Positions 1,301 to 59,529 of a DNA stretch of 64,000 bases are shown one piece after another; position 1 is the first letter of the stretch; the number at the start of each line of letters is the position of its first letter. This DNA comes from an uncultured Bacteroidia bacterium (GTDB lineage: Bacteria > Bacteroidota > Bacteroidia > Bacteroidales > F082): assembly GCA_902799345.1 (NCBI GenBank), contig CADBZW010000019.1, forward strand, positions 25,132 to 89,131, given 5' to 3'. The notes below the pieces were generated by a model. It was not told the origin of the DNA. It searched no databases and saw only the letters and a program-made list of their open reading frames with translations. Made by a program: the position numbers and the translations under genes.

Positions 1301-4300
1301 ATGAAAAAGTTAGTATCAACCCTCATCCTTTGCCTGGCTTGCTTCGGCGGCTTGAAGGCACAAAACTATTGGGAGTTCATCGACCATCCAGCCACCTCCT
1401 TGTTGGGTGTGGGACCCGATGGCAGCCTGTTTTTCAATGAAGGCAGCAGCGGCATCAGCCGTATGCAAATTCCAAACGGAGCTTGTACAACCGTGCTCGG
1501 ACCAGAGGCAGGCTACAATACGCATTGTTTCAGTGTGAGTCCTGAAGGAAGAATCTTCGTTTTTCATGATGACACACAGACCGTAATGTACTCCGACGAC
1601 AACGGCGACACTTGGCACCAAACCACTTCGCTTTCACCTAATTGCGCATTTCCCACTAAAGCAGGTTTGTATGCTGTATCCAATGACATTTTTGTCGTGT
1701 GGGCCAAAGAAGGGGAAATTCTCTATACCCTCGACGGAGGTGAGACGTGGAGTGGCTGTGTACTTGATTTTCTCGAAAACTCTGAATCCGTCAAAGACCT
1801 TATAGTCAATGAAAATGGAGATGTGTATGTCAGTGTATCCTATTACATTATGAATATCGTCGGCATTTATCATTCCACGTTGTCCGACATGCAAAACTGG
1901 GAACTCGTTGCCTTTGAAGGTGTTGACATAGAAGATATGGCCTTCGACCCCGAAGGCAATGTGGTGGCTTGCGGCTATAATGGCGATGGGAGCAGTGTTG
2001 GCTTCCAGCACATTCCTGGTTTTTACCTGTTTGCTGGCTCGAGTTTAGCCATTAGCGATGGCGGAGTGGTTTACACGCCTAATTTTGCAGGTCATTCGGC
2101 TGTGCTTTCCTATTCCCTCGACCATGGCGAGACGTTTGTCAGCGCAGGCGAGGACATCCCCCTTGTTGACATTGCTCCTGGCGATGGAAGCGGTTATCTT
2201 TTCAAAGGGTATGACAATTACCTGTATTTTGTCTCTGGAACTGAGTATTGGAAAAGCATCCCTAATGCCGACGAGATTCCCACATTCAACCCTTTGGTGG
2301 GCGTGAAGTTTTATGACGAAACCAGCCGTTTGTATTACATCATCACCAGCGGCAACACCGTGGAAGTGACCTATGACCAATGGCATTTCAACACTTACGT
2401 GGGCGACTATGTCGTGCCCGAAACGGTGACCTACGAGGGCGTTACCTATACCGTCACGGCCATTGGTGAGTTGGCCTTTGGCGGCTGCGAAGGCGAGCTG
2501 AACTCTGTGATTGTGCCTAATACTGTAACCACCATTGAAAGATCGGCGTTTGAGTCGAGCGCGAAACTGCGTACCGTTGTCCTGCCCAATTCCGTGGACA
2601 CCATCGCTCCGCGAACCTTTGCTAACTGCCCCAAACTGTCTTCGGTACGGCTTCCCGACGGCATCACCTATATCCCGAATTTCATGTTCGAGCGCTGCGA
2701 GAGCCTCACTTCGTTCACGATACCGCCCACGGTGACGCACATCGGCGAAAGTGCTTTTAATAATTCGGGCATCGTCATCAACAGCATTCCCGAAAATGTG
2801 ACCTCCATCGGAAACAACGCCTTCTATTACTGCGAAGGCATCACCTCGATGGTAATACCCAACACGGTGACATCATTGGGATGGGGCGTGTTTTGCTTTT
2901 GCAGGGAATTGCAATCCATCCAGCTGCCCGACAACCTTGAGGCGATTCCCGCCACGTTCTTGAAGAATTGTTTCGCCTTAAGTTCCATCACCATTCCTGA
3001 GTCGGTGACTTCGATAGGGGAGGAGGCGTTTTCGGGGTGTACGCATCTGACTTCGGTGGTGATTCCCGAAGCCGTCACTTCAATGGGCAATGGCGTTTTC
3101 CAGAATTGCTATAACTTGGCCTCCATCGACATGCCCGAAACCTTGGATTATCTTGGTGAAAAGGCGTTCCGTAAGTGCGAACGATTGACGAGCATCACCC
3201 TTCCCCGAAATTTGACCAAAGTATGCAATGAGGTGTTTGAAGGATGCTCTGCCTTGCATCAAATCGAAATTCCCGAATCGGTGACCTCGATTGGAAACAG
3301 GGCTTTTGTAGATTGTAATTTGGAAGAAGTTGTAATTCCTAACCAAGTGGATTCCATCGGGTTGAATGCGTTTGATGGCTGTCAAGGTCTGTCGCATGTG
3401 GTGTTAGGCACATCGGTCTCTTATCTTGGTGAGTACGCATTGAATACAGTGGAAAGTGTGGGCGATTCTCTCATCGTAGAATGCCTCGGCACTACGCCGC
3501 CACGATGCGGCTACACCACTTTCCCCGATGCTGCGCTACAAGGCAAGATGATTGTCCCATGCGGCTATGAGGATATCTATCGCGAGGCTTTGGGCGAGTA
3601 TTGGGCGAGCGGCAACTTTGAGGAAGACTGCGACTTTGCCGGTTTGGAATGGTACTACGAAATCTTGAACGAAAACGGTAGTATCACTTACCAGCATCTG
3701 GAATATACTGCTGACACGACCATCAACCATAAGGAAGTGCAAATTATCATCCGCACGAACACCTTATATGATAAGGGCGAGCACAGCGAGGTGACGCGAG
3801 AATATGTCTATGGTGAAGACGGCATAATCTATTGGTGGAACAAGGATTTGCAGGACTTTACGGTGCTATACGACTACAACGCCGAAGCCGGCGACGAATG
3901 GGAAATCAAGGTGGGTACACAACGTATCACCATGCATGTGGATGCCGTGGAGCAATACGAATATGAGAACCAACAATTCAGGCTGTTGCAGGTGCGCGAT
4001 GCAGACGATCTCTTCAGCGGCACCATCGTGTGTGGCGTTGGCCACTTGACCAGTTTCTTCCCCGAAAAACTGATGAACCGTGGCAAGAACTACCGCGTGG
4101 AAGGTATGCGCTGCTACTGGCGCGAAGGCGAATTGTTCTTCAAATACGGCGAAGAAGATTGCGATGCCGTTTACAAGGTTTATCACAACGGCCTCGATGA
4201 TCATGAGGATGATGTGTTTGCGGTTTATCCCAACCCGACCAATGGCGTTCTCGTTGTAGAGACGGTGTGCACACCGTCTCTACCAGCAGCAATCTACCGT

Positions 4301-4438
4301 ATCACCAACCTGATTGGCCAAACCCTAATGTCAGGCCAAATCACCTCCGAAACCCAACAAATTGATGTTTCCAATTTGCAAAAGGGAATGTATTTCATTA
4401 CCTTTGCAGGCGAAACACGAAAATTTGTGGTGCGTTAA
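1301..4438 (+). CDS. T9SS-secreted BspA-like leucine-rich repeat protein
   Basis: 1045-residue secreted protein. A signal peptide (1-20, ending GGLKAQ) is followed by a region with BNR/sortilin-like turns (DDNGDTWHQT, LDGGETWSG, LDHGETFVS) to about residue 330. About twenty LRR_5 (BspA/Treponema pallidum type) repeats follow, such as CEGITSMVIPNTVTSLG, between about 340 and 760. A WYYEI...EWEIKVG module (about 780-970) comes next, then a T9SS type A C-terminal domain (YPNPTNGV ... GMYFITFAGETRKFVVR). It is probably anchored on the cell surface and may act in adhesion. The last 265 residues are closely shared with the next gene. A 28-bp palindrome lies in frame inside the C-terminal domain at 4256-4283. 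Confidence 0.85.
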   Translation: MKKLVSTLILCLACFGGLKAQNYWEFIDHPATSLLGVGPDGSLFFNEGSSGISRMQIPNGACTTVLGPEAGYNTHCFSVSPEGRIFVFHDDTQTVMYSDDNGDTWHQTTSLSPNCAFPTKAGLYAVSNDIFVVWAKEGEILYTLDGGETWSGCVLDFLENSESVKDLIVNENGDVYVSVSYYIMNIVGIYHSTLSDMQNWELVAFEGVDIEDMAFDPEGNVVACGYNGDGSSVGFQHIPGFYLFAGSSLAISDGGVVYTPNFAGHSAVLSYSLDHGETFVSAGEDIPLVDIAPGDGSGYLFKGYDNYLYFVSGTEYWKSIPNADEIPTFNPLVGVKFYDETSRLYYIITSGNTVEVTYDQWHFNTYVGDYVVPETVTYEGVTYTVTAIGELAFGGCEGELNSVIVPNTVTTIERSAFESSAKLRTVVLPNSVDTIAPRTFANCPKLSSVRLPDGITYIPNFMFERCESLTSFTIPPTVTHIGESAFNNSGIVINSIPENVTSIGNNAFYYCEGITSMVIPNTVTSLGWGVFCFCRELQSIQLPDNLEAIPATFLKNCFALSSITIPESVTSIGEEAFSGCTHLTSVVIPEAVTSMGNGVFQNCYNLASIDMPETLDYLGEKAFRKCERLTSITLPRNLTKVCNEVFEGCSALHQIEIPESVTSIGNRAFVDCNLEEVVIPNQVDSIGLNAFDGCQGLSHVVLGTSVSYLGEYALNTVESVGDSLIVECLGTTPPRCGYTTFPDAALQGKMIVPCGYEDIYREALGEYWASGNFEEDCDFAGLEWYYEILNENGSITYQHLEYTADTTINHKEVQIIIRTNTLYDKGEHSEVTREYVYGEDGIIYWWNKDLQDFTVLYDYNAEAGDEWEIKVGTQRITMHVDAVEQYEYENQQFRLLQVRDADDLFSGTIVCGVGHLTSFFPEKLMNRGKNYRVEGMRCYWREGELFFKYGEEDCDAVYKVYHNGLDDHEDDVFAVYPNPTNGVLVVETVCTPSLPAAIYRITNLIGQTLMSGQITSETQQIDVSNLQKGMYFITFAGETRKFVVR
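4256..4283. repeat. 28-bp perfect palindrome inside a coding region (copy 1)
   Basis: GTAGAGACG, core GTGTGCACAC, CGTCTCTAC. It is read in frame as VETVCTPSL within the T9SS C-terminal domain. Other members of the family lie at 7583, 32726, 53191 and 59489. Confidence 0.9.
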
Positions 4439-4447
4439 TCGCGGTCC

Positions 4448-4519
4448 TGTAGGGCTGTCGTATTACGGCAGCCGCGCATGGTAAACCCAAGGCGGCTGCC
4501 ACGGTGTGACAGCCCTACA
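4448..4519. repeat. Nested inverted repeat after LRR gene (TGTAGGGCTGTC family, copy 1)
   Basis: Outer arms are TGTAGGGCTGTC (4448-4459) and GACAGCCCTACA (4508-4519). Inner arms are GGCAGCCGC (4467-4475) and GCGGCTGCC (4492-4500). It could fold as a cruciform or an mRNA 3' hairpin. An identical copy follows the next gene at 7775, and a half copy lies at 16923. Confidence 0.85.
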
Positions 4520-4564
4520 ACAGACCGAAACGAATAGATAAATAACAATCAAAAACATACGACA

Positions 4565-7500
4565 ATGAAAAAACTAGTTTTAACCTTAGCAATCCTGCTC
4601 GCCTTTGCGTTCAATGGCATGACGCAGCAAAGCAGTTTCGCTCCTCAAGGCGCGGAGTGGTATTTCAATGTCGCTTCCTTTATGGGCAGCCCAACCACTT
4701 ATTTCCACATGGAGGTATTGGACGATACGATTATCCAAGGCCACACCTGTAGCGTCATCTCGCCGCAGTATGGGGGTGGCAATGGCGACAAACAGTTTGT
4801 CTATGAAGACAACGGCGTGGTGTATTGGTATAACCAGACTATTCAAAATTTTACGACACTATATGACTTCAATGCTGAGGCAGGTGAATCGTGGTATTGC
4901 GACATCGATTCCTGCTCTTTTGAGTGTCAGGTGCAGTCTGTTGAAGAGGTTGCTTTGGAAGGCCGTACTTATCGTGTTCAAACCGTTATACCCTTAATTG
5001 GTGACAACAACTATAGTGCTGAGGTGTTTTTCTTTGGAGGGGGACGCATCATCGAAGGCATTGGAGCAGTAGGTTTGTTCCCTAATTCTTGGGCATGCTC
5101 TAATGAATTTGTGTGTGGGGCGTATCTCGATTATTTGCGCTGTTATCTCGTTGACGGCGAGATGGTGTTGCACCTTGGTGCATACGATTGTGATGAACAA
5201 GGCTATTGCTGGGACGGCACTGTGGCTGAATCCTACGGAGGTGGCGACGGTACCGAAGAGAACCCATATCAGATTTATACTTCAAATCAGTTGGCTTTAC
5301 TCGCCCAGCAAACCAACAATGGCACAGGTGGCGATGCCTATTACAAGATTATGGAGAATATCAATCTGGCCAATTGTGATGGCGGTATTCAGCAATGGAT
5401 TTCCATAGGGACACCCGAACATCCTTTCACGGGACATTTTGATGGCTGGGGCGATGCCAAAACCATTTTGAATTTGCATCAAACCATCACTGACGGTGAT
5501 GCACAGCCTGTGGGTGGTCTCTTCGGCTGCACCAACGGTGCCGAAATCAACAATGTCCATTTAGCGCAGTGTTATGTCAGCGGAAATGGAAAATATGTGG
5601 GCACCCTTGTGGGTTATGCTGGCTTGACCAACATTTCTAATTGCAGTATTTATGACGGACGCGCCTCAACTGACAAACAATATGGTATTGCGGGTGGTTT
5701 GGTAGGCTTGGCGGGCTACACTTACGGAGAACAGGGAGCGAGCGATCAGACATACTCCATCACGGCGTGTCAAGTGCAAGAGGCTGTGAAGGTGGAAGCC
5801 CATATTGCTGGTGGCGTTGTGGGCCAGATTAACGATTTGCGTGCGAAAGCACAATATGTGATGGATGGTTGCGTGATGAGTGGCTTGGCCGATAGTTTTT
5901 GTGTTCATGGAGGTTCTTCAACTGGTGGTATAGTTGGGATAATGTGGTGGGCGACGATATTGCGCTGCACTAACAATCAAAAAGTTGTTGGAGGTCTTTC
6001 ACCTGGTGGTGGAGGTGTCGGCGGTATTGTAGGAATGGTTGGCTATGGCAGTGTTGAGGAATGTATCAACAATGAAACAGGACAGATTAGTAGTGTCGAA
6101 GGCTTTAAAGGTGTTCATGTTGGTGGAATTATCGGTATTATTCATAGTAGCGTCGAGAGTAGGGCAAGTGATATAAGAGGTTGTCAGAACTTTGCCGATT
6201 TGTCTGGCACTGGTTGTTGTGGCGGCATTGTTGGTGGTTATCATTTGAATCATTCAGGTACGCCTTCTTTTGTACAACAATGTAATAATTATTCAAGGGT
6301 GACATGTCATCGTCCTGCAAACGCTATTGGCGTTGAAAGTGTTGGCGGCATTGTTGGCCATGTTGGGCAGGGCTTTGGAAATCTTTGTATCGTTGAATGT
6401 AGCAATTTCGGTGATATGGTGATGGAGAGTGAGGAGCAAGGAGATGCTGGCGGCATTTTAGGTTCAAGAGAAGCGGGCAATATATACATTGTGAATGTGT
6501 TCAACAGAGGAACAGTGAGTGCTCCCAAATATGCAGGCGGCATTATTGGCGGTGCTGAGAATATAGGTAACTGCGTCATCCAGAATGTGTATAATGCAGG
6601 CGAGGTGATTACCAGAGAAGAAATCAAAGGAGCCATCGCTTATAATCAGCAAGAAACAGACCATTTCAGCGATTGCTATTGGTTGGGCCATCTTGAAAAC
6701 CATGACGGCGTAAGCCAAGGTGAACCGTTGCAACATTCCTGTGCTTTCTGGCCTACCACTTATTTTGGTGAATGGAGTCTCGACAGCCTGCAATTCGGAC
6801 ACGATTTGGTAGAGGCTTTGAATACAGGCGCTGAAGCCTTGGTGGAGCAATATCCTACGGTACTTGCCATGGTTCACCGTTGGGATTATGACAATGACCA
6901 TAATAACGACGGCTTCCCCGTCTTTACTGGAGTTGAAGTTGGTTATCCCTTTGGTGAAACGGAATGGTACTACGAAATCGAGAACGAGAACGGCAGCATC
7001 ACTTATCAGCATCTGGAATATGCCGCCGACACGACCATCAACCATAAGGAAGTGGTTGTCATTATTCGAACCAACACGCTTTATGACAAGGGTGAACATC
7101 AGGAAGTCACTCGTGAATACCTTTATGAAGAAGACGGTGTGGTGTATTGGTGGAACAAGGATTTGCAGGAATTCACGACGCTCTACAATTTTGGCGCCGA
7201 GGAAGGCGACGAATGGGAAATCAAGGTGGGGATGGAAAGCATTCTTATGCATGTGGGTACTGTGGAGTATCAAGAATATGAAGGGAGTCTGTATAAAATG
7301 CTGATTGTGAGCGATGACCAAGATCTCTTCAGCGGTACCATCGTGTGTGGCATTGGCCACCTGACCAGTTTCTTCCCCGAAAAACTGATGACACGCGGCA
7401 AGGACTACCGTGTGGAAGGCATGCGCTGCTTCTGGCGCAACGGCGAATTGTTCTTCAAATATGGAGAAAGGGATTGCGACGAGGTGTATCAGGAAATCCA

Positions 7501-7765
7501 TAACGGCATCGAGGAAGACGGCCCTTCGACAGGCTCAGGGACCTTAACCATTTATCCCAACCCGACCAACGGCGTCCTCTTTGTAGAGACGGTGTGCACA
7601 CCGTCTCTACCAGCAGCAATCTACCGCATCACCAACCTGATGGGCCAAACCCTAATGACGGGCCAAACCACCTCCGAAACCGAACAAATCAACGTGTCCG
7701 GCCTGCCCGATGGGATGTATTTCATCACCGTGGGCGACACGACGCGGAAATTTGTGGTGCGTTAA
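4565..7765 (+). CDS. T9SS-secreted protein with GLUG-like repeats
   Basis: 1066 residues. The signal peptide (1-20) is followed by a first WYFNV...NFTTLYDFNAEAGESW module (about 27-215). Glycine-rich repeats of the GLUG type follow (GGLFGCTNGAEINNV, GGIVGIMWWATILRC, GGIIGIIHSS) from about 216 to 780. A second copy of the module (WYYEIENENGSITYQHLEY, about 797-990) and a T9SS C-terminal domain complete it. It is probably a surface adhesin or an extracellular repeat protein. The module therefore occurs three times in two adjacent genes. Two dispersed repeat elements are translated near the end: PSTGSG (7523-7543) and VETVCTPSL (7583-7610). The gene starts 126 bases after its paralogue and was probably formed by tandem duplication. 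Confidence 0.82.
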   Translation: MKKLVLTLAILLAFAFNGMTQQSSFAPQGAEWYFNVASFMGSPTTYFHMEVLDDTIIQGHTCSVISPQYGGGNGDKQFVYEDNGVVYWYNQTIQNFTTLYDFNAEAGESWYCDIDSCSFECQVQSVEEVALEGRTYRVQTVIPLIGDNNYSAEVFFFGGGRIIEGIGAVGLFPNSWACSNEFVCGAYLDYLRCYLVDGEMVLHLGAYDCDEQGYCWDGTVAESYGGGDGTEENPYQIYTSNQLALLAQQTNNGTGGDAYYKIMENINLANCDGGIQQWISIGTPEHPFTGHFDGWGDAKTILNLHQTITDGDAQPVGGLFGCTNGAEINNVHLAQCYVSGNGKYVGTLVGYAGLTNISNCSIYDGRASTDKQYGIAGGLVGLAGYTYGEQGASDQTYSITACQVQEAVKVEAHIAGGVVGQINDLRAKAQYVMDGCVMSGLADSFCVHGGSSTGGIVGIMWWATILRCTNNQKVVGGLSPGGGGVGGIVGMVGYGSVEECINNETGQISSVEGFKGVHVGGIIGIIHSSVESRASDIRGCQNFADLSGTGCCGGIVGGYHLNHSGTPSFVQQCNNYSRVTCHRPANAIGVESVGGIVGHVGQGFGNLCIVECSNFGDMVMESEEQGDAGGILGSREAGNIYIVNVFNRGTVSAPKYAGGIIGGAENIGNCVIQNVYNAGEVITREEIKGAIAYNQQETDHFSDCYWLGHLENHDGVSQGEPLQHSCAFWPTTYFGEWSLDSLQFGHDLVEALNTGAEALVEQYPTVLAMVHRWDYDNDHNNDGFPVFTGVEVGYPFGETEWYYEIENENGSITYQHLEYAADTTINHKEVVVIIRTNTLYDKGEHQEVTREYLYEEDGVVYWWNKDLQEFTTLYNFGAEEGDEWEIKVGMESILMHVGTVEYQEYEGSLYKMLIVSDDQDLFSGTIVCGIGHLTSFFPEKLMTRGKDYRVEGMRCFWRNGELFFKYGERDCDEVYQEIHNGIEEDGPSTGSGTLTIYPNPTNGVLFVETVCTPSLPAAIYRITNLMGQTLMTGQTTSETEQINVSGLPDGMYFITVGDTTRKFVVR
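7523..7543 (+). repeat. TTCGACAGGCTCAGG element translated as PSTGSG (copy in GLUG gene)
   Basis: The element starts CCTTCGACAGGCTC and ends AGGGACC. It sits in the linker just before the T9SS C-terminal domain. Related copies lie at 48590 (coding) and at 14293, 38405 and 62050 (intergenic). Confidence 0.8.
7583..7610. repeat. 28-bp perfect palindrome inside a coding region (copy 2)
   Basis: Same sequence as the copy at 4256, in the same codon phase and at the same place in the C-terminal domain. Confidence 0.9.
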
Positions 7766-7774
7766 TCGCGGTCC

Positions 7775-7846
7775 TGTAGGGCTGTCGTATTACGGCAGCC
7801 GCGCATGGTAAACCCAAGGCGGCTGCCACGGTGTGACAGCCCTACA
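7775..7846. repeat. Nested inverted repeat after GLUG gene (TGTAGGGCTGTC family, copy 2)
   Basis: Identical to the repeat at 4448-4519. The identity begins before it, in the last codons of both genes (AAATTTGTGGTGCGTTAATC), so roughly 95 bases are shared. This supports a segmental duplication of gene end plus 3' flank. Confidence 0.85.
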
Positions 7847-7897
7847 TACAGACCGAAACGAAATAACAAATTGATAAACTGTTAAAAATCAGATAAA

Positions 7898-8614: not shown

Positions 8615-8646
8615 CCAATTGATTATCAACTCAAAATTTAAATGTT

Positions 8647-9180: not shown

Positions 9181-9198
9181 TCGACGGATTGGTTTCCA

Positions 9199-9233: not shown

Positions 9234-9246
9234 ATGATGCTTTTTT

Positions 9247-9301
9247 CTACAGAAACGTGCCAAATCTATCAAATTTTTGAAGATTTGGCACGTTTCTGTA
9301 G
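9247..9301. repeat. 21-bp-arm hairpin repeat, downstream copy flanking ATPase gene
   Basis: Arms CTACAGAAACGTGCCAAATC(T) at 9247-9267 and its exact reverse complement at 9281-9301, with a 13-nt loop that can itself pair (TCAAA/TTTGA). It ends 6 bases before the ATPase stop codon. A second copy in the same orientation lies on the other side of the gene at 10770. Confidence 0.9.
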
Positions 9302-10769: not shown

Positions 10770-10824
10770 CTACAGAAACGTGCCAAATCTATCAATTTTT
10801 TGAAGATTTGGCAGGTTTACGTCG
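10770..10824. repeat. Hairpin repeat, upstream copy flanking ATPase gene
   Basis: The left arm is identical to that of the copy at 9247 and is preceded by the same T-run. The right arm has drifted at about four positions (CAGGTTTACGTCG against CACGTTTCTGTAG). The two copies form direct repeats around the ATPase gene. Confidence 0.85.
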
Positions 10825-10830: not shown

Positions 10831-10867
10831 CCAAAAACAAAGGCTGCCGCAACCCCGCGACAGCCTT
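10831..10867 (-). terminator. Terminator of the redox fusion gene
   Basis: Arms AAGGCTG (10840-10846) and CAGCCTT (10861-10867), with an A-rich stretch on the left that becomes a T tract on the minus strand. Confidence 0.6.
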
Positions 10868-10897
10868 AATTATCAATTGTCAATTGTCAATTTTCAA
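10868..10897. repeat. TCAATTG tandem repeat
   Basis: Several near-copies of TCAATTG in a row. The same element occurs at 52610-52640 before cvpA. It is a dispersed simple element with no known role. Confidence 0.6.
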
Positions 10898-13800
10898 TTA
10901 CTTAAACGCATTTTCGCTCAGTCCGTGTCCAGAGAGGGCCAAGTCCTTCATGTAGCCAGGAACCTCCTTGCCGAGGTACTTGTCCACATACAGTTTGGCG
11001 AGGTATTGGCCGAGCATGAAGCCGTGGCCGCGCAAGCCGGTGAGGATACCGACCTCCGGGTCGACGATGTAACGCGGCTCGGTGTAACGACCAGCCCAGC
11101 AAGCCAAGAAGCTCACCTCGCCCAGGTTGGGAATCCACTCGGCGAAGACCTCGGAGACAATCTCCAAGAACTCCTTGCTGTTGTACTTGATGTTCTGGCG
11201 TGCCTCGTAAGCGTCGGTGTCGGGGCTGGCGCAGCCGATGATCTGGCCGGTGTGGGCCCACTGCTGTCCGTAGACGGCGCTGAAGCCCTTGTAGTGACGA
11301 CGATCGATGATCATGTCGAGCGGGCCACCATTGGGTCCCATCATGGGCAAACGGCGCGTGATGAAGGCTTGGTGCTTCACTGGATAGAGACCCGTATCCA
11401 AGCCTAACATGTCGTTGAACTTCTCGGCACCCCAGCCCATTGCGTTGACGAAGTGGTCGCAGGTGTACTCGATGAACTCGCCCTCGTGGGTTCGCACCAA
11501 GGCGATGTAATGTCCATTGGCTTTCTGCACATGGAGCAGCTCGCAGTCCTCGAAGTAGCGGCCGCCCTGCTGCACGCCGATCCAGCGGATGTAGTCGATG
11601 ACGCGGCCAGGCGTGGCCTGCCAGCAGTCGCGGGTGATGAGGGCGTGGCTGTAGGTGTCCTTGCTGTCGTCCCACAGCGGCGAAATCTCTTTTTTGAAGT
11701 CCTTGCGCTCAATCATGTAGGCATCGCTCCATGCGCGTGATGCATCGAGAGAGTTGTAGGTGGCTTCATCGTGTACCAAGTTGACGTAATGCGTCGGGTG
11801 GTAGTTGATGTTGTGCTCCTTCTGCATGTTCTTGAAAATCTCGTGGTTGTGCACAGCGATGTCGGCGATGTCAGGGTTGGAGAAGGCCGGACGGCCGCCA
11901 CCGATGCAACGCCACGAAGCGCCACGGCTGTAGTTGATCATCACAGGTTTCTTGCCGGCTTCCGAGAAGTAGCGGAACAAGGCACTACCTGCGATGCCGC
12001 CACCCGCGATGAACACTTCGACCTGTTCTTTCTTCACGCCGTTCATTTCGGGGAAGATGAAGGTCTCTTTGGTGTGCGGGTTGTAGAGGTCGCCAAGGCT
12101 GACTTGGTTCGACAGCGGGGCACGTGGCGTGGCGTCGCCAACCAATTCGATGCCGTAGGAACGCAAGATTTGACGGGCGCGTGGGATGCAACGCTTACCG
12201 CGGCACGGACCCATACCCATGCGGGTGATGTGTTTCAGCTCGTCCACCGAGATGGTCTTGCGGTTGCCGATGACGCGCAGGATGCGGTCGAGTTTGATGT
12301 CCTCGCAGTGGCAGACGTAGGTCTCGCTCTCGCCTTCGGCCAGTTTCTTGGGCGAAATCGGGGTGGTGAGTTCCTTGTTGGCGTTGTAACGGTCTTTCAG
12401 GATGAAGCCTCTCACGTCGGTCAGCTCGAACACGCGGCTTGCCTCACCCGACGGACGTGACGAGCGGGCTTTCACGCGAGCCACGTTGGTCTTGTTCGAC
12501 TTCTTGAGGATCTTCTCGATGACGCCTTCGCCAATCTTTTGGCCGTCGTTGTCGACGAGATAGACCTCTGCGCCTTCCTGGGCTTCATATTCGATGGGCA
12601 GGAAGCAGGTCGACTTCTGCACGTCGTAACCGAAGATGGCCAAGCCCGGGCAACTGGAAACACACAGCATACAGCCGATGCACTTGTTGTAGTCGATGGT
12701 GGGTGTGCTGCTGGTGGAGGGCTTGGTGATGGCGCCTTGCGGGCAACTGAATGAGCAGGGGTTGCAGGCGAAGCCGTAGAGGCAGTCGGCCTGCACGAAA
12801 GCCTTCTGCATCATGCGCTCGGGCGTAGGCAGGTTGGGCTTTTCGAGGAGACGCACAGGATGCTGTTGCGAGTCGATATATTGTCTCGAAATCTCAAGAT
12901 AATCGTCGTAGTTGAAGCGCACGCCGATGGCTTGGGCCACCTCGTAGGCGACTTGTTTGCCACGCAGCACGGCGCTGGTGCCTTCGCCGATGCGGATGGC
13001 ATCGCCGGCACCGTAAGTGTTGAGGCCGAAGACCTCGCGTCCTTTCACCAACAGTTGGTTGTCGGGGATAAGGCCGGTGCAGATGTTGATGATGTCGATG
13101 TCGTCGATGACTTGCTCAGTGCCAGGGATGGCCTTGAAGTTCTCGCACTTGGCGATGACGGCGCCTGTGATGCCGGTGTAGTCGGCATTGGGGATAGCGC
13201 GCACCAGGACGTAGCTGGTCATGATCGGAATGCCGAGACGGCGCACACGGTTGGCTTGCACGGGGAAGCCGCCCTCGCGGGGCATGGCCTCGATGATAGC
13301 CTTGATGGTGGCACCCGCCTGCATGCCTTGGTAAGAGGTCAGGTAGCCGATGTTGCCAGCACCCACGGTGAGGACTTTCTTACCGAGCAAGGTGTGCTCT
13401 TGGTTCATCATCTTCTGGAACACGGCAGCGGTGTAAACGCCCGGCACGTCGTCGTTCTCGAAGGTCGGCATGAAGGGCACGGCACCCGTGGCCACCACGA
13501 GGTGTTGTGCGTCGATGTAGCCAATCTCGCCAGTGACGATGTTCTTGATGGCCACGCGACCGCCTTCAAGCAGGTCCCAAACGGTGTTGTTCAGCAGGAT
13601 GCCTTCGTGGTTGTCGCCCGCCAAGGTCTTGGCGATGTCGAAGCCACGCATGCCACCGAATTTCTTCTCCTTCTCGAAGAAGAAGAACTGGTGGGTCTGC
13701 ATGTTGAATTGGCCACCGATGTTGGCGTTGTTGTCGACGACGATGTTGCTGATGCCGAAGGCGTTGAGTTGCTCACGGCAGGCGAGACCCGCGGGACCGG

Positions 13801-16888: not shown

Positions 16889-16966
16889 TTTAGTTGAGAG
16901 TTTAGTGTTGAGAGTTTAGAGTTGTAGGGCTGTCACACTGTGGCAGCCGCACATTCGAAATAGCCA
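16889..16966. repeat. moxR-DUF58 gap with repeat fragments
   Basis: Contains GAGAGTTTAG direct repeats and a half copy of the TGTAGGGCTGTC element (16923-16934, with GGCAGCCGC at 16942-16950). The full element at 4448 has both arms; here only the left half is present. Confidence 0.6.
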
Positions 16967-20921: not shown

Positions 20922-22545
20922 GCTTGTTAAATATCTGACAATCATTGTTTTTCTGTCGTCTGCTTTGACTCTCTCGGCACAAAGCGACGAGAAGGCCATA
21001 CGCAAAGGCAACCGAAACTACAAGAGCGGTAACTATGAAGAAGCCATCGCCAAATATCGGGAAGCCTTGGAAATCAGGCCGAACAATGCCAAGGCACAGT
21101 TCAACTTAGGTGATGTGTACTATGCCAAGCAGTCGTACGACACGGCGTATGCCGAGTTCCAGAAGGTGCTTGAGATTTCGCCCGATGCCAAGCTGAAGTC
21201 GGATGCCGTCTACAACATGGGCAACTGCCTCTTGGCGCAGGACAAATACTACGATGCCTTTAATGTATATAAGGTGTCGCTGAAACTGAATCCGGAGAAC
21301 GAAAATGCCTTGTATAACCTTGAGTACTGCCGTGCCCACCTCGTCAAGAGTGAGGTATGGGTGGTGCAGCCCGAGCATGGCACGGTGGAGGCTAAGGAAA
21401 AAATGGCCTTCAACGGGCAGCGCGTGACGTTGACTTCGCGCCCCGACGAGGATTATGCCTTGTCGGAGTACATCGTGGCGAGAGCCGACAACATGGAGGT
21501 GAAGGTCGATGTGAGCGGCAGCAGCTTTATCATGCCAAAGTTTGATGTGATGGTAACGGCTGTGTTTAAGCCTTCACATAAGATCGAAATCGACAAGGAC
21601 ATCAAGCACGGCACGGTGCGCGCCGACCGCCAAAAGGCTGTCGAAGGACAAAGCGTAAAGCTGGAAGCCCAGGGCGAGGATGACTATGTGCTCGATAAGT
21701 ACACGGTCTACCGCACGGGCAATGTAAAAGACACCATCCCGGTCAACAAGGATGTTTTCCAGATGCCTAACTTTGATGTGACGGTGACGGCAACGTTCCG
21801 CACGGCTTTGAAAGTCAGCATCGACAGCGTGGCTAACGGCACGATCTCGGTAACCGACAGCCTGGTGAAGCCCGGACAAGACGTGGGCATCATCGTGAGG
21901 CCCAACAAGGGCTACCAGTTGGGCGACCTGCAGGTGGTCAGCCAAAAGGATGCCACCGAGTCGGCTCCCGTTTCCGACGACAATATGTTCCAGATGCTCG
22001 ACTCCGACGTGACGGTGAAAGCCACTTTCGTGGAGGCGACAGACTATTATAAGGTGCAGCCCGACACCGCGGTGAAAGGCGGCCATGTGTTGCTCGACCA
22101 GACCGAAGCCACGCGCCGCGAGACGGTGAAGCTCGACAACGCCCCCGAGCCAGGTTACCAGTTCAAGGAGTATGTCATCCATCAGGTGGGCGACACCGCC
22201 GTGAAGGTGCAAGCCTTGGGTAATTTCTTCACCATGCCCGACTTCGATGTGGAGGTCTCGGCCATCTTCGAGAAGAGCGAAGGCGAAGACCAGCAGCAAC
22301 AACAGCAACAACAAGAACAGCAGCAAGATCAGCAACAAGAGCAGGAGCAACAACAAGACCAGCAACAAAACCAAGACCAGCAACAGCAGCAGCAAAACCA
22401 GCAGCAGCAGAGTCAGCAGATGTCGAAGGAAGACGCCCAGCGTATGCTCGACGCTCTTGAAAACCAAGAGAAGAAGACCATGGAAAAGGTCAACGAACAG
22501 AAAGTAAGACAACAACCCAAAAAGAAATCCGACAAAGACTGGTAG
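20914..22545 (+). CDS. batC: BatC, TPR protein with four extra InlB-B-like repeats and a Gln-rich tail
   Basis: 543 residues with the start at MNKLVKYLTIIVFL. Signal peptide 1-22; TPR repeats 25-145 (NYEEAIAKYREALEIRPNN); then four repeats of about 76 residues from 148 to about 455, each ending in a pattern such as MPxFDVxVTAxFxxS. These resemble the divergent InlB B-repeat / Flg_new_2 family. A Gln-rich stretch (about 458-505) and the BatC-type tail (KEDAQRMLDALENQEKKTMEK) end the protein. Ordinary BatC has the TPR part and tail but is near 240-300 residues, so the repeats look like an insertion. The stop codon TAG lies in a palindromic element (22543-22564). Confidence 0.85.
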   Translation: MNKLVKYLTIIVFLSSALTLSAQSDEKAIRKGNRNYKSGNYEEAIAKYREALEIRPNNAKAQFNLGDVYYAKQSYDTAYAEFQKVLEISPDAKLKSDAVYNMGNCLLAQDKYYDAFNVYKVSLKLNPENENALYNLEYCRAHLVKSEVWVVQPEHGTVEAKEKMAFNGQRVTLTSRPDEDYALSEYIVARADNMEVKVDVSGSSFIMPKFDVMVTAVFKPSHKIEIDKDIKHGTVRADRQKAVEGQSVKLEAQGEDDYVLDKYTVYRTGNVKDTIPVNKDVFQMPNFDVTVTATFRTALKVSIDSVANGTISVTDSLVKPGQDVGIIVRPNKGYQLGDLQVVSQKDATESAPVSDDNMFQMLDSDVTVKATFVEATDYYKVQPDTAVKGGHVLLDQTEATRRETVKLDNAPEPGYQFKEYVIHQVGDTAVKVQALGNFFTMPDFDVEVSAIFEKSEGEDQQQQQQQQEQQQDQQQEQEQQQDQQQNQDQQQQQQNQQQQSQQMSKEDAQRMLDALENQEKKTMEKVNEQKVRQQPKKKSDKDW

Positions 22546-22564
22546 GGACGCAACGCTTGCGTCC
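22541..22564. repeat. Palindrome at the batC stop codon
   Basis: GGACGCAA (22546-22553), CGC, TTGCGTCC (22557-22564), preceded by GGTAG which contains the stop codon. It is related in form to the GTAGAGACG family and to the small palindrome at 1136. Confidence 0.75.
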
Positions 22565-32725: not shown

Positions 32726-32753
32726 GTAGAGACGTAGCGCGCTACGTCTCTAC
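32726..32753. repeat. 28-bp perfect palindrome between convergent genes
   Basis: GTAGAGACG, core TAGCGCGCTA, CGTCTCTAC. It lies between rlmN and the GH97 gene, which converge here, and could serve as a shared terminator hairpin, although no T tract follows it. Confidence 0.9.
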
Positions 32754-44811: not shown

Positions 44812-44985
44812 AGTAGAACCCTCGAATATCCTCAACCGGGTTCGCCAACAACCGGCCGTGCCAGGTGCGTGGGCCGTGGCCGACAAGGCATCTTCCGCTC
44901 GGCACCATCCCGTGTAATCCGTGTAATCTGTGTGACGTAAGAAAAACAGTCTTTTGGCCTCCCGAGACGGCACTTTCAGGTAAGG

Positions 44986-45073
44986 GAACCCTTGGGTAAG
45001 CCAAGTGTAAGCCAAGTGTAAGCCAAGTGTAAGCCAAGTGTAAGCCAAGTCTAACCCTTGGGTAAGCCTTGGG
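44986..45073. repeat. Tandem array of 11-bp units
   Basis: Units begin at 44997, 45008, 45019, 45030, 45041, 45052 and 45063, with a degenerate unit before. Five are TAAGCCAAGTG-like and the outer ones TAACCCTTGGG-like. There are no spacers, so it is not CRISPR. Confidence 0.9.
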
Positions 45074-45211
45074 TGACCCATGGTGCTACCAAGCTGAAAG
45101 CTGACGGCTGATTGCTTACAGCTAAAAAGCTTATAATAATGCAGCTTAATTTGAACAGTTGTTTATTGAAAAATATCTTCCAAACTTTGTTAAACCAACC
45201 CCAAAAAACTG

Positions 45212-52601: not shown

Positions 52602-52607
52602 CCCCCT

Positions 52608-52641
52608 AATTATCAATTGTCAATTATCAATTGTCAATTAA
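52608..52641. repeat. TCAATTG tandem repeat before cvpA
   Basis: TTATCAATTGTCAATTATCAATTGTCAATTA-type run, the same element as at 10868. It overlaps an unused in-frame TTG start. Confidence 0.7.
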
Positions 52642-52645
52642 AAAA

Positions 52646-53194
52646 ATGAACTACCTAGACATCATCATCGCCATAATCCTCCTCCTCTTCGGATTCAAGG
52701 GCTTCCGCAAGGGCCTCGTCATCGAGGTGGTGACGCTGCTGGCCTTCGGCGTGGGCATCTACGGCGCCATGCACTTCTCCGACTTCACCGCTGAGCATCT
52801 GCAGGACTTCATGGAAATCAACCCGAAATACCTCAACACCATCGCCTTTGTGCTGACCTTTATCCTCTTGGTGATTGGAGTCAACCTCCTCGGGAGGTGG
52901 GTGACCAGCCTGGTGAAGGCGATGAACCTGAATTTCTGGAACAAATTGGGCGGTGGCGTCTTCGGCTTGGCCAAGGGACTACTGCTGTGTAGCACGATGT
53001 TATTGATATTCAATAATTTTCAGTGGACGGGTCTCATCAAGGAAGAGGTGAGGAAGGAGTCGTTGCTCTATCCCTACGTGGAGAAGACGGTGCCGTATCT
53101 CTACAAGGGCTTCGACCTGGTGAAAGGCTATGCCAAGGATGTATTACCCAACGAGGAAAAAGAAACAACGGAGCCTGATGGCCCCGTTGTGTAG
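52646..53194 (+). CDS. CvpA-family membrane protein
   Basis: 182 residues with the start at MNYLDIIIAIILLLFGFKGF. Four hydrophobic helices (about 5-22, 27-45, 65-85, 103-125) with the CvpA signature KGFRKGLVIEVVTLLAFGVG and GVFGLAKGLLLCSTMLLI. CvpA is needed for colicin V production and envelope homeostasis in enterobacteria; the role in Bacteroidota is unclear. Its stop codon TAG lies inside a GTAGAGACG palindrome. Confidence 0.85.
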   Translation: MNYLDIIIAIILLLFGFKGFRKGLVIEVVTLLAFGVGIYGAMHFSDFTAEHLQDFMEINPKYLNTIAFVLTFILLVIGVNLLGRWVTSLVKAMNLNFWNKLGGGVFGLAKGLLLCSTMLLIFNNFQWTGLIKEEVRKESLLYPYVEKTVPYLYKGFDLVKGYAKDVLPNEEKETTEPDGPVV

Positions 53195-53216
53195 AGACGC
53201 GATTCATCGCGTCTCC
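53191..53216. repeat. GTAGAGACG palindrome at the cvpA stop codon
   Basis: GAGACGCGAT (53194-53203), TC, ATCGCGTCTC (53206-53215). It is the 28-bp family with a changed right end. TAG at 53192-53194 is the cvpA stop. Confidence 0.85.
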
Positions 53217-53231
53217 AAAACGCGTTTGAGA

Positions 53232-53909: not shown

Positions 53910-53962
53910 GGCGTTTGCGTTTTTACATTGTTCAACGCAATAGGTTATGCAACTATTGTGCC

Positions 53963-53991
53963 AAAAAAAAGCATCGGAGCTTCCGATGCTT
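53963..53991 (-). terminator. Terminator after clpX
   Basis: GCATCGGA-GCT-TCCGATGC with A8 on the left and T7 on the right, so it can act in both directions. On the minus strand it follows clpX by a few bases. Confidence 0.88.
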
Positions 53992-53994
53992 TTT

Positions 53995-55227: not shown

Positions 55228-55232
55228 TGTTT

Positions 55233-55910
55233 TTAGGCTTGTTTCTTGATGAGGACTTCGTCGATCATGCCGTAAGCCTTGGCTTCCTCGGCGGTCATCC
55301 AGTAGTCGCGGTCGCTGTCGGCCCACACCTTGTCGTAGGTCTGGCCCGAGTGGAGGGCGATGATTTCGTACAGCTCCTTCTTCAGCTTCTGGATCTCGCG
55401 GGCCGTGATTTCGATCTCGGTGGCCTGACCTTCCACGCCGCCCATGGGCTGGTGGATCATGATACGCGAGTGGGGCAGGGCTGAGCGCTTGCCTTTGGCG
55501 CCGGAGCACATCAGCACGGCGGCCATCGAAGCGGCCATGCCGGTGCAGATGGTGGCCACCTCGGGCTTGATGAACTGCATGGTGTCGTAGATGCCCAAGC
55601 CAGCGTACACGCTGCCACCAGGTGAGTTGAGGTAGATGTTGATGTCGCGCTTCGAGTCGGTCGACTCAAGGAAGAGCAGCTGGGCTTGGATGATGTTGGC
55701 CACATAGTCGTCGATGGCGGTGCCGAGGAAGATGATGCGGTCCATCATCAGGCGGCTGAACACGTCCATCTGCGCCACGTTGAGCTGACGCTCTTCGATG
55801 ACGGTGGGGCTGATGTAGCCGCTGTTGTTGATCTTGGAGATGTATTGCTCCAGGCCGAGGGTGTTCAGGCCCACGTGCTTGGTGGCATATTTGAAGAATT
55901 CGTTGCTCAT
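55233..55910 (-). CDS. clpP: ATP-dependent Clp protease proteolytic subunit ClpP
   Basis: 225 residues. The Ser-His-Asp triad is visible: Ser in [12 protein letters not shown], His in [10 protein letters not shown], and Asp in the region of [13 protein letters not shown]. The N-terminal extension is about 20 residues longer than in E. coli, with a putative propeptide ([20 protein letters not shown]). It overlaps tig by 4 bases. Confidence 0.96.
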
Positions 55911-57268: not shown

Positions 57269-57296
57269 TTCTATATTATTGATAATCTTTAACTTG

Positions 57297-57378
57297 TGCG
57301 GATGAAGGGACTCGAACCCTTACTTCGTGAGAAACTAGATCCTAAGTCTAGCGCGTCTACCAATTTCGCCACACCCGC
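57297..57378 (-). tRNA. tRNA-Leu (anticodon TAG)
   Basis: The acceptor GCGGGTG pairs with CATCCGC (one G-T). The anticodon arm is CTAGA-CTTAGGA-TCTAG with TAG in the loop, there is a short variable arm, and the T arm has GGTTCGAGTCC. CCA is not encoded. A -7 box lies 25 bases upstream. Confidence 0.93.
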
Positions 57379-57402
57379 AAGTTAGAGGCGTTTTTGAGGG
57401 CG

Positions 57403-57410
57403 CAAAGATA
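57403..57410 (-). promoter_or_regulatory. -7 box for tRNA-Leu-tig-clpP-clpX
   Basis: TATCTTTG then CGCCC on the minus strand, about 25 bases upstream of the tRNA. No other box lies between the tRNA and tig. Confidence 0.7.
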
Positions 57411-57456
57411 CAAATTTTTGGAATATCCTCACCTTAATTAACATGCTTTTCTTTTT

Positions 57457-57533
57457 GACTGCGGGACTTCGTGACACGGGACTTCGGGCTTTGCTCGTCT
57501 CGCAGTCCCGTAGTCTCGCAGTCTCGTGTCAGT
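57457..57533. repeat. GGGACT/AGTCCC inverted repeat at the permease stop codon
   Basis: GACTGCGGGACTTCGTGACACGG faces TCTCGCAGTCCCGTAGTCTCG. Its right edge overlaps the TGA stop of the permease gene by 3 bases. Confidence 0.75.
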
Positions 57534-58671
57534 TTTTCACATCAAGAGCCTCTCGTAGCGCGTTTCCGATGAGCATAAACGCCAGCACGAGTAGCATGAT
57601 GGCGATACCCGGGAGGATGGCGAGGTAGGCGGCGTCAAGGATGATGAAGGCGTAGTTTTCCTTGATCATGCTGCCCCACGAGGGCATGGGAGGCTGCACG
57701 CCGATGCCCAGGAAACTCAAGCCTGCCTCCAGCAGGATGGCCGAAGCGAAGTTGGCCGCCGACACCACGATGATAGGGTTGAGGATGTTGGGTAGGATAT
57801 GCCGAAAGATGATACGCAAATTCTTGAAGCCTAATGCTTTGCCTGCCTCCACAAACGTCGTCTCGCGGATGGAGAGGATTTGTCCACGGACGATGCGTGC
57901 CACCTCGACCCACATGGTGAGACCCACGGCGATGAACACCTGTGCGATGCCCTTGCCCAAGGCGAAGGTGATGGCGATGACGAGCAGCAGGGTAGGGATG
58001 GACCACACCACGTTGATGAACCACACCACCGCGTCGTCGACCTTGCCACGGAAGAAGCCGCCCAGGCTACCCATGACGATGCCTATCATCAGGCTGAGCA
58101 GCACGGCGATGAAGCCCACGGTGAGGCTGATGCGGCTACCCAACACCAAGCGGCTGAGGAAGTCGCGCCCAAACTGGTCGGTGCCCAAAAGGAACTTACG
58201 GTGCTTCACGCAATGGCTTCTTATATAGGTGTCGGCCTCGGCGGCAGTCGCAAAGGCTTTCGCTGTGAGTTCTTGGTTGTCAAGGATTTCGGTTCTGGTG
58301 CTTTGGCTCTCCTCCGCCTGATAGAGATACACTGTCGTTGCGGTGGCATCCACGCGGAGGCTGTCGAAAGGCAGGTAGATGCAGTCGTCGGGCCGACCAT
58401 TGAAGAGGAACTGGAAGAACGGCGTCTTGGCGGGCGGCGTCTCCTTGGGCACCATCAGCATGTCGACCTCGAAGCCGGGTTTTTTCGTGCTGATTTCGAG
58501 GATCTGCCGGTTGGCGTTGGGTGTCTTGTCGGGGATGACGAGGTAGGCAAACAAAGCCAGCAAAGCCCAAAGGAGCACGAAGCCGCAAGAGGCCATCCCG
58601 AGCTTGTTGCTCCGGAACCGCTTCCATGCCAACGCTTTAGGGGATTGGTTTTGCTTCGGTTGTTCGTCCAT
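57529..58671 (-). CDS. Oligopeptide ABC transporter permease (OppC/DppC-like)
   Basis: 380 residues. Membrane helix near the N-terminus (MASCGFVLLWALLALFAYLVI), then a periplasmic insertion of about 110 residues (about 50-165), then five helices. The EAA loop (EAGKALGFKNLRIIFRHILPN) that contacts the ATPase is intact. A partner for the fused ATPase at 49546 is likely. No OppB-type permease or binding protein is nearby. Confidence 0.9.
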   Translation of the reverse strand: MDEQPKQNQSPKALAWKRFRSNKLGMASCGFVLLWALLALFAYLVIPDKTPNANRQILEISTKKPGFEVDMLMVPKETPPAKTPFFQFLFNGRPDDCIYLPFDSLRVDATATTVYLYQAEESQSTRTEILDNQELTAKAFATAAEADTYIRSHCVKHRKFLLGTDQFGRDFLSRLVLGSRISLTVGFIAVLLSLMIGIVMGSLGGFFRGKVDDAVVWFINVVWSIPTLLLVIAITFALGKGIAQVFIAVGLTMWVEVARIVRGQILSIRETTFVEAGKALGFKNLRIIFRHILPNILNPIIVVSAANFASAILLEAGLSFLGIGVQPPMPSWGSMIKENYAFIILDAAYLAILPGIAIMLLVLAFMLIGNALREALDVKN

Positions 58672-58695
58672 GGGTGCTTTTGTATTGCGCCGTCA

Positions 58696-58703
58696 AAAAT
58701 ACG
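58696..58703 (-). promoter_or_regulatory. -7 box for the permease gene
   Basis: TATTTTTG on the minus strand, 25 bases before the ATG. Confidence 0.65.
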
Positions 58704-58785
58704 GAATTCGCCCTTGATTTCGAGGTGAAAAGAAGAAAAATTGAAAAAAATGCACAAAAAGCATCGCTGTTATGGAAAAATGTTG

Positions 58786-58793
58786 TATTTTTG
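58786..58793 (+). promoter_or_regulatory. -7 box for tRNA-His
   Basis: TATTTTTG then CAGCC, 30 bases upstream of the tRNA. Confidence 0.7.
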
Positions 58794-58823
58794 CAGCCGA
58801 TTTCCGTGGGAACGGATCAGATG

Positions 58824-58897
58824 GTGGATTTAGCTCAGCTGGTTAGAGTACCGGATTGTGGTTCCGTGGGTCGTGGGTTCGAATCCCACATTCCACC
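58824..58897 (+). tRNA. tRNA-His (anticodon GTG)
   Basis: The anticodon loop TTGTGGT has GTG, and a G at 58823 sits where the extra G-1 of tRNA-His is expected. The acceptor GTGGATT/ATTCCAC and anticodon stem CCGGA/TCCGT each have one mismatch, so the gene is a little degenerate. CCA is not encoded. Confidence 0.9.
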
Positions 58898-58904
58898 CAG
58901 AAAG

Positions 58905-58932
58905 AAGAGGTTCGAGAGAGCCTCTTTTTTTT
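58905..58932 (+). terminator. Terminator after tRNA-His
   Basis: AAGAGG / CCTCTT stem followed by a T8 tract. Confidence 0.7.
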
Positions 58933-58935
58933 GTC

Positions 58936-59035
58936 CCGTGCATAGATTCCTTTCGGATTTTGAAGGCATGTCATGCCGACCGAGGAACGAGGGAGTGCAT
59001 CTATGCCTTCAAAATCCTCGGGGTGACATGCACGG
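58936..59035. repeat. Large composite inverted repeat (CCGTGCAT ... ATGCACGG)
   Basis: Outer arms CCGTGCAT and ATGCACGG. Inner arms GGATTTTGAAGGCAT and ATGCCTTCAAAATCC. The loop carries GTCATGCCGACCGAGGAACG, of the widespread GTCATGC...GGTGACA kind. It ends just before the ruvX promoter. Confidence 0.85.
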
Positions 59036-59050
59036 AAAGCGGAAAATTTG

Positions 59051-59058
59051 TATTTTTG
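59051..59058 (+). promoter_or_regulatory. -7 box for ruvX
   Basis: TATTTTTG then CACC, 19 bases before the ATG. Confidence 0.7.
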
Positions 59059-59076
59059 CACCTCAATTTAAACGAC

Positions 59077-59529
59077 ATGGCAAGGATAATGGCTATCGAC
59101 CTTGGACGCAAACGTAGCGGCATCGCCGTCACCGACCCGTTGCAGATCATCGCAAACGGGCTGACGACGGTGGAGTCGCACAAACTCGTCGACTTCGTGC
59201 TGAACTATGTGAAGCAAGAGGAGGTGGAGCAAATCGTCATCGGCGAGCCAAAGGACATGAAAAACAACCCTTCCGACTGCTCCAAGTACATCGAGCCTAT
59301 CGTCAACCGGCTGAAGAAGTTGCTGCCCGACATGAAGATCGTGCGCTACGACGAGCGTTTCACCTCAGTGATGGCACACCAGGCCATGATTGATGCTGGC
59401 CTCAGCAAGTCGCGCCGCCAGGACAAGGAACTCGTCGACACCATCGCCGCCACCATCATCCTGCAATCTTATATGGAATCAAAATCTTGTAGAGACGCGA
59501 TTAATCGCGTCTCTACCAACAATCAATAA
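59077..59529 (+). CDS. ruvX: RuvX (YqgF) Holliday-junction resolvase-like / pre-16S rRNA nuclease
   Basis: 150 residues with the start at MARIMAIDLGRKRSGIA. An RNase H fold protein that matures the 16S rRNA 5' end. Motifs are IDLGRKRSGIAVTD, VIGEPKDMKNNP and RYDERFTSVMAHQAM, with the last acidic residue in DKELVDTIAATIIL. The family is usually 135-140 residues. Here the last 13 residues (CRDAINRVSTNNQ) come from a 28-bp palindrome plus a few bases, so the gene has been lengthened. Confidence 0.92.
   Translation: MARIMAIDLGRKRSGIAVTDPLQIIANGLTTVESHKLVDFVLNYVKQEEVEQIVIGEPKDMKNNPSDCSKYIEPIVNRLKKLLPDMKIVRYDERFTSVMAHQAMIDAGLSKSRRQDKELVDTIAATIILQSYMESKSCRDAINRVSTNNQ
59489..59516. repeat. 28-bp perfect palindrome at the 3' end of ruvX
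   Basis: GTAGAGACG, core CGATTAATCG, CGTCTCTAC. It is read as RDAINRVST in the ruvX frame. Confidence 0.92.

Follow-up and report, generated by a model that had tools for sequence, protein, structure and literature searches.

Double-foot GTAG palindromes of an uncultured Bacteroidia bacterium, their probable RAYT partners and core differences at sites shared with relatives

The DNA considered here (the window) is a stretch of 64,000 nucleotides from an uncultured Bacteroidia bacterium (Bacteroidales; F082; GCA_902799345.1, contig CADBZW010000019.1, positions 25,132 to 89,131), whose assembly of 3.13 Mb in 51 contigs is 91% complete and is called G000 below. The window holds five near-identical 28-bp palindromes: two lie in adjacent genes for proteins sorted by the type IX secretion system (T9SS), one at the end of a RuvX gene, one at the end of a CvpA gene and one between genes (Table 1). 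The first-pass annotation had described them as one dispersed family; its coordinates proved right, and no such palindrome appeared in 100 shuffles of the 64-kb window. The palindromes are best read as non-autonomous double-foot GTAG repetitive extragenic palindromes (REPs), spread by REP-associated tyrosine transposases (RAYTs) of the subclass 2.4 type, with the core of the palindrome as the address of each RAYT lineage; we put the probability of this at a little under nine in ten. It draws on the copy number of the palindrome, the RAYT-like genes found, the REPs within and beside them, the match of core and RAYT, orthologues free of the element and wholesale core differences between relatives.

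The foot and outer stem of the REP read GTAGAGACG and enclose a core of 10 nt. Folded as single-stranded DNA, each of the three perfect window forms gives a 12-bp stem with a 4-nt loop, and the 53191 form, with two mismatches in its right arm, gives 9 bp. The window palindromes carry double-foot ends, GT[AG]G on the 5' side and C[TC]AC on the 3' side, and GTAG pairs with CTAC so that no foot remains unpaired; the shorter relative at 22542, judged by eye, has one unpaired foot. Among 319 palindromes with exact arms (from all loci gathered, some counted more than once), the five core pairs are fully complementary in 167, and in 117 a single pair of the five is not. Two of the three reading frames through the REP are open, giving VET and RD peptides, and the third reads TAG, which is why the palindrome supplies the stop codon of the CvpA gene. 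The peptides, the 150-residue RuvX and the CvpA and batC-like stops had all been given correctly at first pass. The copy at 32726 lies between the convergent 3' ends of what we take to be an rlmN-like open reading frame (ORF) and a GH97-like ORF on the minus strand. At the same place a relative, called G107 (C16, L541), has an unrelated terminator-like hairpin, recognised by eye.

Table 1. Palindromes, host genes and related repeats of the window (positions counted from its first letter).
Feature	Position	Strand	Remark
Double-foot REP, core GTGTGCACAC	4256..4283		In frame in T9SS C-terminal domain, VETVCTPSL; TIGR04183 match
Double-foot REP, core GTGTGCACAC	7583..7610		Equivalent place in adjacent T9SS paralogue
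Double-foot REP, core TAGCGCGCTA	32726..32753		Between convergent gene ends
Double-foot REP, core CGATTCATCG	53191..53218		Right foot degenerate; TAG ends CvpA gene
Double-foot REP, core CGATTAATCG	59489..59516		In frame at RuvX C-terminus, RDAINRVST
T9SS-sorted protein, 1045 aa, host ORF	1301..4438	+	C-terminal 197 aa scanned
T9SS-sorted paralogue, 1066 aa, host ORF	4565..7765	+	C-terminal part 71% identical
CvpA/Colicin_V family (PF02674), host ORF	52646..53194	+	Start taken as an ATG in ORF 52631-53194
RuvX (PF03652), 150 aa, host ORF	59077..59529	+	Start taken inside ORF 58858-59529
One-footed GTAG hairpin GTAGGGACGCAACGCTTGCGTCC	22542..22564	+	Gives upstream gene (batC-like, label of the first-pass annotation) its TAG stop; by eye
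Second REP family, inverted pair of GTAGGGCTGTC hairpins	4448..4519		Its RAYT (L328) elsewhere in genome
Second REP family, inverted pair	7775..7846		

Across the genome, 81 copies were found at up to two mismatches and none with the reversed control pattern; at 28 bp the family thus has the size and abundance of a GTAG REP, a high-copy palindrome of 20-40 bp. One- and two-base core variants occur among the copies. All 99 genomes examined in the genus carry the element (1 to 122 copies each), as do 16 of 74 other genomes of the family, with at most 11 copies. A scan of named genomes found at least 118 stretches with the arms across several phyla. The matches listed include Bacteroidota and many Cyanobacteria (Nostoc, Calothrix, Scytonema, Planktothrix), together with Chloroflexi, Planctomycetes, Acidobacteria, Spirochaetales, Desulfo-groups and others; metagenome bins, with taxon labels as deposited, make up many of these. 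Two side observations concern these copies. The viral contigs L189, L190, L191, L204 and L210 each bear two palindromes 1857 bp apart, with cores CAAAATATTG and CAAGCTATTG, and at L524/L554 (G114:C86) the core of a REP contains an additional insert, GACTACGTCGAATCTTCG, which may be a nested element.

Fifty of the 81 copies, all exact, were read, and about 16 of them fall within a recognisable gene or at its end; an automatic count, in which many ORFs are spurious, places 30 of the 50 within an ORF of at least 100 aa. The hosts comprise T9SS domains, a RAYT, RuvX, an AlkZ-like DNA glycosylase, a protein with a methylguanine-DNA methyltransferase domain, a macro-domain protein, a U32 peptidase and a PhoH-like protein and, by reading and below the family cut-off, a Vsr-like endonuclease, a GHMP-kinase-like and a sugar-isomerase-like protein. 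DNA repair genes seem frequent among them, as they are among the genes reported to hold GTAG REPs (Di Nocera et al., 2013; PMC3733652). RuvX is matched in 94 of the 99 genus genomes. In 30 of these 94 orthologous loci, which were read, the element stands at the same place in 5, and the other 25 end in different, unrelated tails, which supports insertion of the RuvX copy. The same peptide at the same place in unrelated species, which would tell against the first-pass reading, was not seen for RuvX among the loci of the genus. The T9SS site is common to many paralogues and congeners, and the two window copies in T9SS genes are therefore not two independent insertions.

Which enzyme could move such an element? 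The Pfam family Y1_Tnp (PF01797) was rejected as the partner: the genes of the genus that were read are of the IS200 type wherever the motif was found (YIxxQ or alike). PF01797 matches 70 of the 99 genus genomes and three genes of the own genome (L016-L018; motifs YIQNQ, YIETQ and YIRTQ), and 32 of its loci were read in the genus (L016-L018, L039-L067). TAGAGACG is absent within about 1.5 kb of L016-L018, which sets the palindrome apart from IS200/IS605 elements; elsewhere, an exact copy lies 0.95 kb from L039 and a near-match close to L063. The solo IS200-type TnpA genes L016 (G000:C20) and L017 (C10) adjoin CCCCGTAGGGG hairpins, a further GTAG-containing family with another type of transposase.

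A profile was built from those ORFs of palindrome-bearing contigs in other species that have HUH and YI..NP motifs. With it, four full-length RAYT-like genes came to light in the own genome (on C5, C13, C37 and C2), all missed by PF01797. The first-pass annotation had proposed to look for an IS200/IS605 or RayT-like transposase, and the search for the RayT-like kind led to the partner. The C5 gene matches the NCBIfam model REP_Tyr_transpos at 4e-15, below the cut-off of that model. Three of the four contain this REP in frame and the fourth contains the second REP family. The C5 RAYT (L325) has CAAAATTTTG-core REPs before and within the gene, the C13 RAYT (L326) has TAGC and TTGC cores, the C37 RAYT (L327) has CGATGAATCG-type cores, and the C2 RAYT (L328) has the second family (GTAGGGCTGTC) inside and around it. 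The REP lies in frame between the HUH and Y motifs, both in the alignment and in L325-L327, with one foot degenerate in the copies inside L326 and L327. Weaker hits occur besides, including the 402-aa L329 (G000:C5:160647-161231), which is twice the usual length and has none of these REPs nearby. Among eight aligned RAYTs, NHxH is found in all, NH[IFV]H in three (NHLH in the rest), WQ in six, YIxNNP in seven and YIIDNP in one; the own four have NHIH or NHVH and WQ throughout, and their YIQNNV, YIENNV, YVANNV and YIQHNP deviate from YIxNNP.

REPs were counted at RAYT loci as AGACG-N10-CGTCT with at most one mismatch and optional feet. Of the 53 RAYT loci of the genus, 36 carry a REP in the gene itself and 41 have one no more than 700 bp away; among 58 control windows of 2 kb, 7 contain one. 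A REP is found inside 39 of 47 RAYT ORFs, from loci fetched for various reasons and with the own C5 gene counted twice (L303 = L325). The number of REP copies follows the presence of the gene: genomes with a full-length RAYT hit have a median of 49 copies (55 genomes) and those with none a median of 13 (27 genomes; p = 5e-6), with 16 for the 17 genomes with weaker hits only.

REPs at one RAYT locus tend to share a core class. At 34 loci with at least two REPs, 113 of 127 REPs belong to the main core class of their own locus (mean of shuffles 50.9, maximum 61 in 10,000); the figure is 83 of 95 in the 24 genus loci alone and 123 of 127 with coarser classes. A quick tree of 64 RAYT proteins, from which the REP-encoded residues had been cut out, requires 17 changes of core class (54 labelled rows, 14 classes; minimum 13, shuffled mean 40.1, none of 200 shuffles as low), with long-branch warnings. 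The CAAAATTTTG, TAGC/TTGC and CGATTAATCG-type classes form clades on it; other classes are split, and long branches make their placement unsure. The constant arms and the variable core thus reflect a foot and outer stem common to many RAYT lineages, of which each tends to carry a core of its own. The first-pass annotation had noted this pattern and suggested that an arm is read by a protein or copied as a unit, which is now probable, a RAYT having been found. The genes for these HUH/Y1 single-strand nucleases (TnpA_REP) would spread the REP copies, the foot and outer stem GTAGAGACG being common to many RAYTs and the 10-nt core matching each lineage to its own copies; copies would survive where the hairpin is tolerated, that is between gene ends, at C-termini and in loops. 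On the sequence evidence, a RAYT may thus both move REP copies and recognise their core. Two group 3 enzymes depend critically on positions in the loop, and the E. coli enzyme does not (PMC8266576).

The same site can hold different cores in related genomes. For 38 own copies the flanking sequence was looked for in G107 and in a second relative, G114, the 38 being drawn from the 50 exact copies with the exclusion of T9SS and RAYT copies, close pairs, flanks with pieces of REP and contig ends. In G107, 22 sites are co-occupied, 4 are empty or hold something else and 12 were not placed. At 16 of the 22 the core is of the same class (0-1 of 10 bases differ), including L337 with poorly matching 110-nt flanks, and at 6 it is replaced (6-10 of 10), with nothing between. 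Over all 22 sites the arms differ at 4 of 396 positions and the flanks at 356 of 4840. The low divergence of the arms is in part selection, perfect arms having been the criterion for the own copies; even so, arms that diverged half as much as the flanks should show an estimated 15 or so changes, against the 4 seen. At the six replaced sites the flanks are 93, 99, 91, 92, 91 and 80% identical, and in every case the other core belongs to a standard class or comes close to one.

One replaced site is L333:1486, where the junctions are identical on both sides, the flanks are 93% identical and, within the REP, only the core is altered. At L333:2619, 1.1 kb away and with 99% identical flanks, the core differs in the same manner, CGGCGCGCCA standing against GTGTGCACAC at both sites, and the first foot base is altered as well. 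These two sites (G000:C9) have unrelated flanks and the same direction of change, as if exchange were locally concerted. In the AlkZ-like gene, where one of the six replacements lies in frame, VETVCTPSL (own), VETWRAASL (G107) and VETHGRASL (G114) lie between conserved residues, with a 6-nt difference adjoining the REP. The six include L004, with the 80% flanks, and L345:1442, with an altered right flank. In G114, eight own sites are clearly co-occupied, three by the own class and five by another, with less exact flanks. A further pair of genomes, G110 and G071, in which the effect is weaker, has 18 co-occupied sites among 44 own sites of G110, five of them in T9SS hits. Outside T9SS, 7 of 13 cores match exactly and six do not, with 1, 2, 2, 4, 4 and 8 of 10 bases changed; what we regard as class changes at two sites (L564/L596, L603/L557) come with altered bases beside the REP. 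At the T9SS codon position, 86 sites parsed from 95 loci (15 loci fell outside the pattern) hold cores of many classes, ATTCATCATTC repeats, members of the second REP family or no element at all; in relatives, the ATTCATCATTC repeats occupy the loop that otherwise holds the REP. The T9SS genes were set aside as proof of exchange and their core differences are not counted for it, because gene conversion between paralogues explains them equally well.

As a pattern, exchange in place thus has the support of one genome pair and some hints from others; the candidate agents are a RAYT, recombination by way of the arms, and loss followed by re-insertion. It is possible, and we propose it tentatively at somewhat less than even odds, that RAYTs sharing the arm site and differing in their core address convert each other's resident REPs. 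A RAYT might then overwrite a resident REP with another in place, and a REP locus, once founded, would be a docking place with its core repeatedly overwritten, a route of spread besides insertion.

Several observations weigh against RAYT-driven spread with a lineage-specific core. Seventeen of the 53 genus RAYT loci lack an internal REP and 12 have none within 700 bp, and the RAYT profile included REP-encoded columns, which biased it towards RAYTs with internal REPs. Some near-complete genomes hold many copies without a RAYT hit (G135, 99% complete, has 40), so that a RAYT is not needed for REPs to persist. The core classes were defined after the data had been seen, class GTGCATGCAC is not clustered on the 64-row tree, and local duplication at RAYT loci could raise the purity. 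The 91%-complete genome yielded no RAYT for its cores GTGTGCACAC, CGCCATGGCA and GTGCATGCAC, which have RAYTs in congeners; for the own core CGGCGCGCCA no RAYT was found, and only a CGGCATGCCA relative was seen. The G110/G071 differences are graded from 0 to 8 and not all-or-none. A clean empty site showing a target duplication did not turn up, and both empty G107 sites have small local changes.

The core differences could also arise through loss of the old REP and independent insertion of another at the target that both prefer. The REP mostly has T at the two adjoining bases, and the flank is altered on one side at L012 (6 nt), L336 (about 4 nt) and, to a greater extent, at L345:1442 and L004, all of which fits a second insertion. 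However, the junctions of L333:1486 are identical on both sides, and only 4 of 26 resolved own sites are REP-free in G107, so that the empty intermediate state is not common; we regard this course as possible if rather doubtful.

Ordinary point mutation, with the palindrome kept by compensating changes, would account for the one- and two-base core variants and for the graded differences of G110 and G071. It would hardly produce the all-or-none cores of G000 and G107, the contrast of arm and flank divergence there or the arrival, each time, at or near a standard class, and it is improbable as the general cause. Homologous gene conversion, in which paralogous flanks and not an act on the REP exchange the core, is equally improbable. 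It would suit the G110/G071 T9SS core difference, which falls within a block of clustered differences in a domain with many paralogues, as well as L336, whose right flank is a dispersed repeat. The flanks of the other five replaced sites, however, occupy a single place in each of G000 and G107 among the candidates scored (best 40 of 71 and 40 of 60), and those of L333:1486 and L333:2619 are 93% and 99% identical. It is very improbable that the palindromes are immobile hairpins with a regulatory role (as terminators or protein sites), for although one copy lies between convergent gene ends where G107 has its terminator-like hairpin and others lie near gene ends, copies are found inside enzymes and the RAYT gene itself and 25 of the 30 RuvX loci read lack the element.

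The Rickettsia palindromic element, offered at first pass as the closest precedent, likewise lies in frame in genes and is longer as a rule. A closer kin is the double-foot GTAG REP of RAYT subclass 2.4, known from Cyanobacteria and Bacteroidetes, with GT[AG]G at its 5' end and the complement at its 3' end (Quentin et al., 2018; PMC6006769); RPE-4 and RPE-6 have been identified as CGTC REPs (PMC3733652). Subclass 2.4 REPs flank the RAYT gene and also occur in frame between its HUH and Y motifs, each gene has its REP family, and the RAYT motifs are NH[IFV]H, WQ and YIxNNP (PMC6006769). The present element agrees with that account in both feet, in the RAYT-flanking and in-frame internal copies and in the gene-specific REP; compared with subclass 2.4 as described in the portions consulted of that paper, it differs in having one arm sequence over many phyla with a core that varies by RAYT lineage, and its RAYT motifs deviate in part. 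GTAG REPs, of which 24 families are known, are 20-40 bp hairpins with a GTAG end that supply TAG stops and lie inside ORFs, many of them DNA repair genes; different REPs occupy about the same recB site in two Xanthomonas species (PMC3733652). Their foot is unpaired and the phyla in the Results of that paper do not include Bacteroidetes, whereas here the foot is paired. A REPIN, a pair of REPs round a spacer, forms a RAYT-linked population (Bertels and Rainey, 2011; PMC3116915), as these REPs do, but the unit counted here is, by choice of the pattern, one symmetrical hairpin (50 own copies). Inverted REP pairs with one foot each are found at the RAYT locus L326.

The type of element, the type of partner, insertion in frame and the supply of stop codons are thus already published (PMC6006769; PMC3733652). 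As far as the searches reach, what is new is that one arm sequence spans many phyla with a core that goes with the RAYT lineage, and that whole cores are exchanged at ordinary sites and in coding ones. In the literature searched, with subscription papers outside its scope, there was no description of core exchange at ordinary sites; six long strings had no match in the papers searched, and none of the titles listed with GTAGAGACG concerns REPs. A 1988 title by Higgins et al. reportedly asks about gene conversion of REPs. The nearest report is the REP orthoswitch, in which the class of the REPs flanking RAYT genes changes at an orthologous place, a change ascribed to mutation with its mechanism unknown (Nunvar et al., 2013; PMC3686654). 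The class change seen here resembles it, but occurs at ordinary sites instead of RAYT flanks.

The window contains other repeats. Hairpins of the second REP family (GTAGGGCTGTC) also occur at 16924. A perfect inverted repeat of 21 bp, CTACAGAAACGTGCCAAATCT, lies at 9247-9301, with a decayed second copy 1.5 kb on (10776-10818), tandem 11-bp units of AAGCCAAGTGT with CCCTTGGGT variants span 44976-45096, and intergenic repeats of the CAATTATCAATTGTCAATT type are found at 10864-10900 and 52604-52654.

How REPs spread has been called poorly understood or not known (PMC8266576; PMC3686654). The odd short peptides met with in annotated proteins (VET...SL, RD...VST) are accounted for by REP insertion. 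Many RAYT paralogues that share one arm and differ in 10-nt cores, together with relatives showing wholesale core differences, make specificity and in-place conversion directly testable. If exchange in place is true, it would offer a possible mechanism for the unexplained orthoswitch, and in coding copies it would mean that conserved proteins have a cassette of about nine residues swapped; the AlkZ-like glycosylase, compared in three species, would be a case of this.

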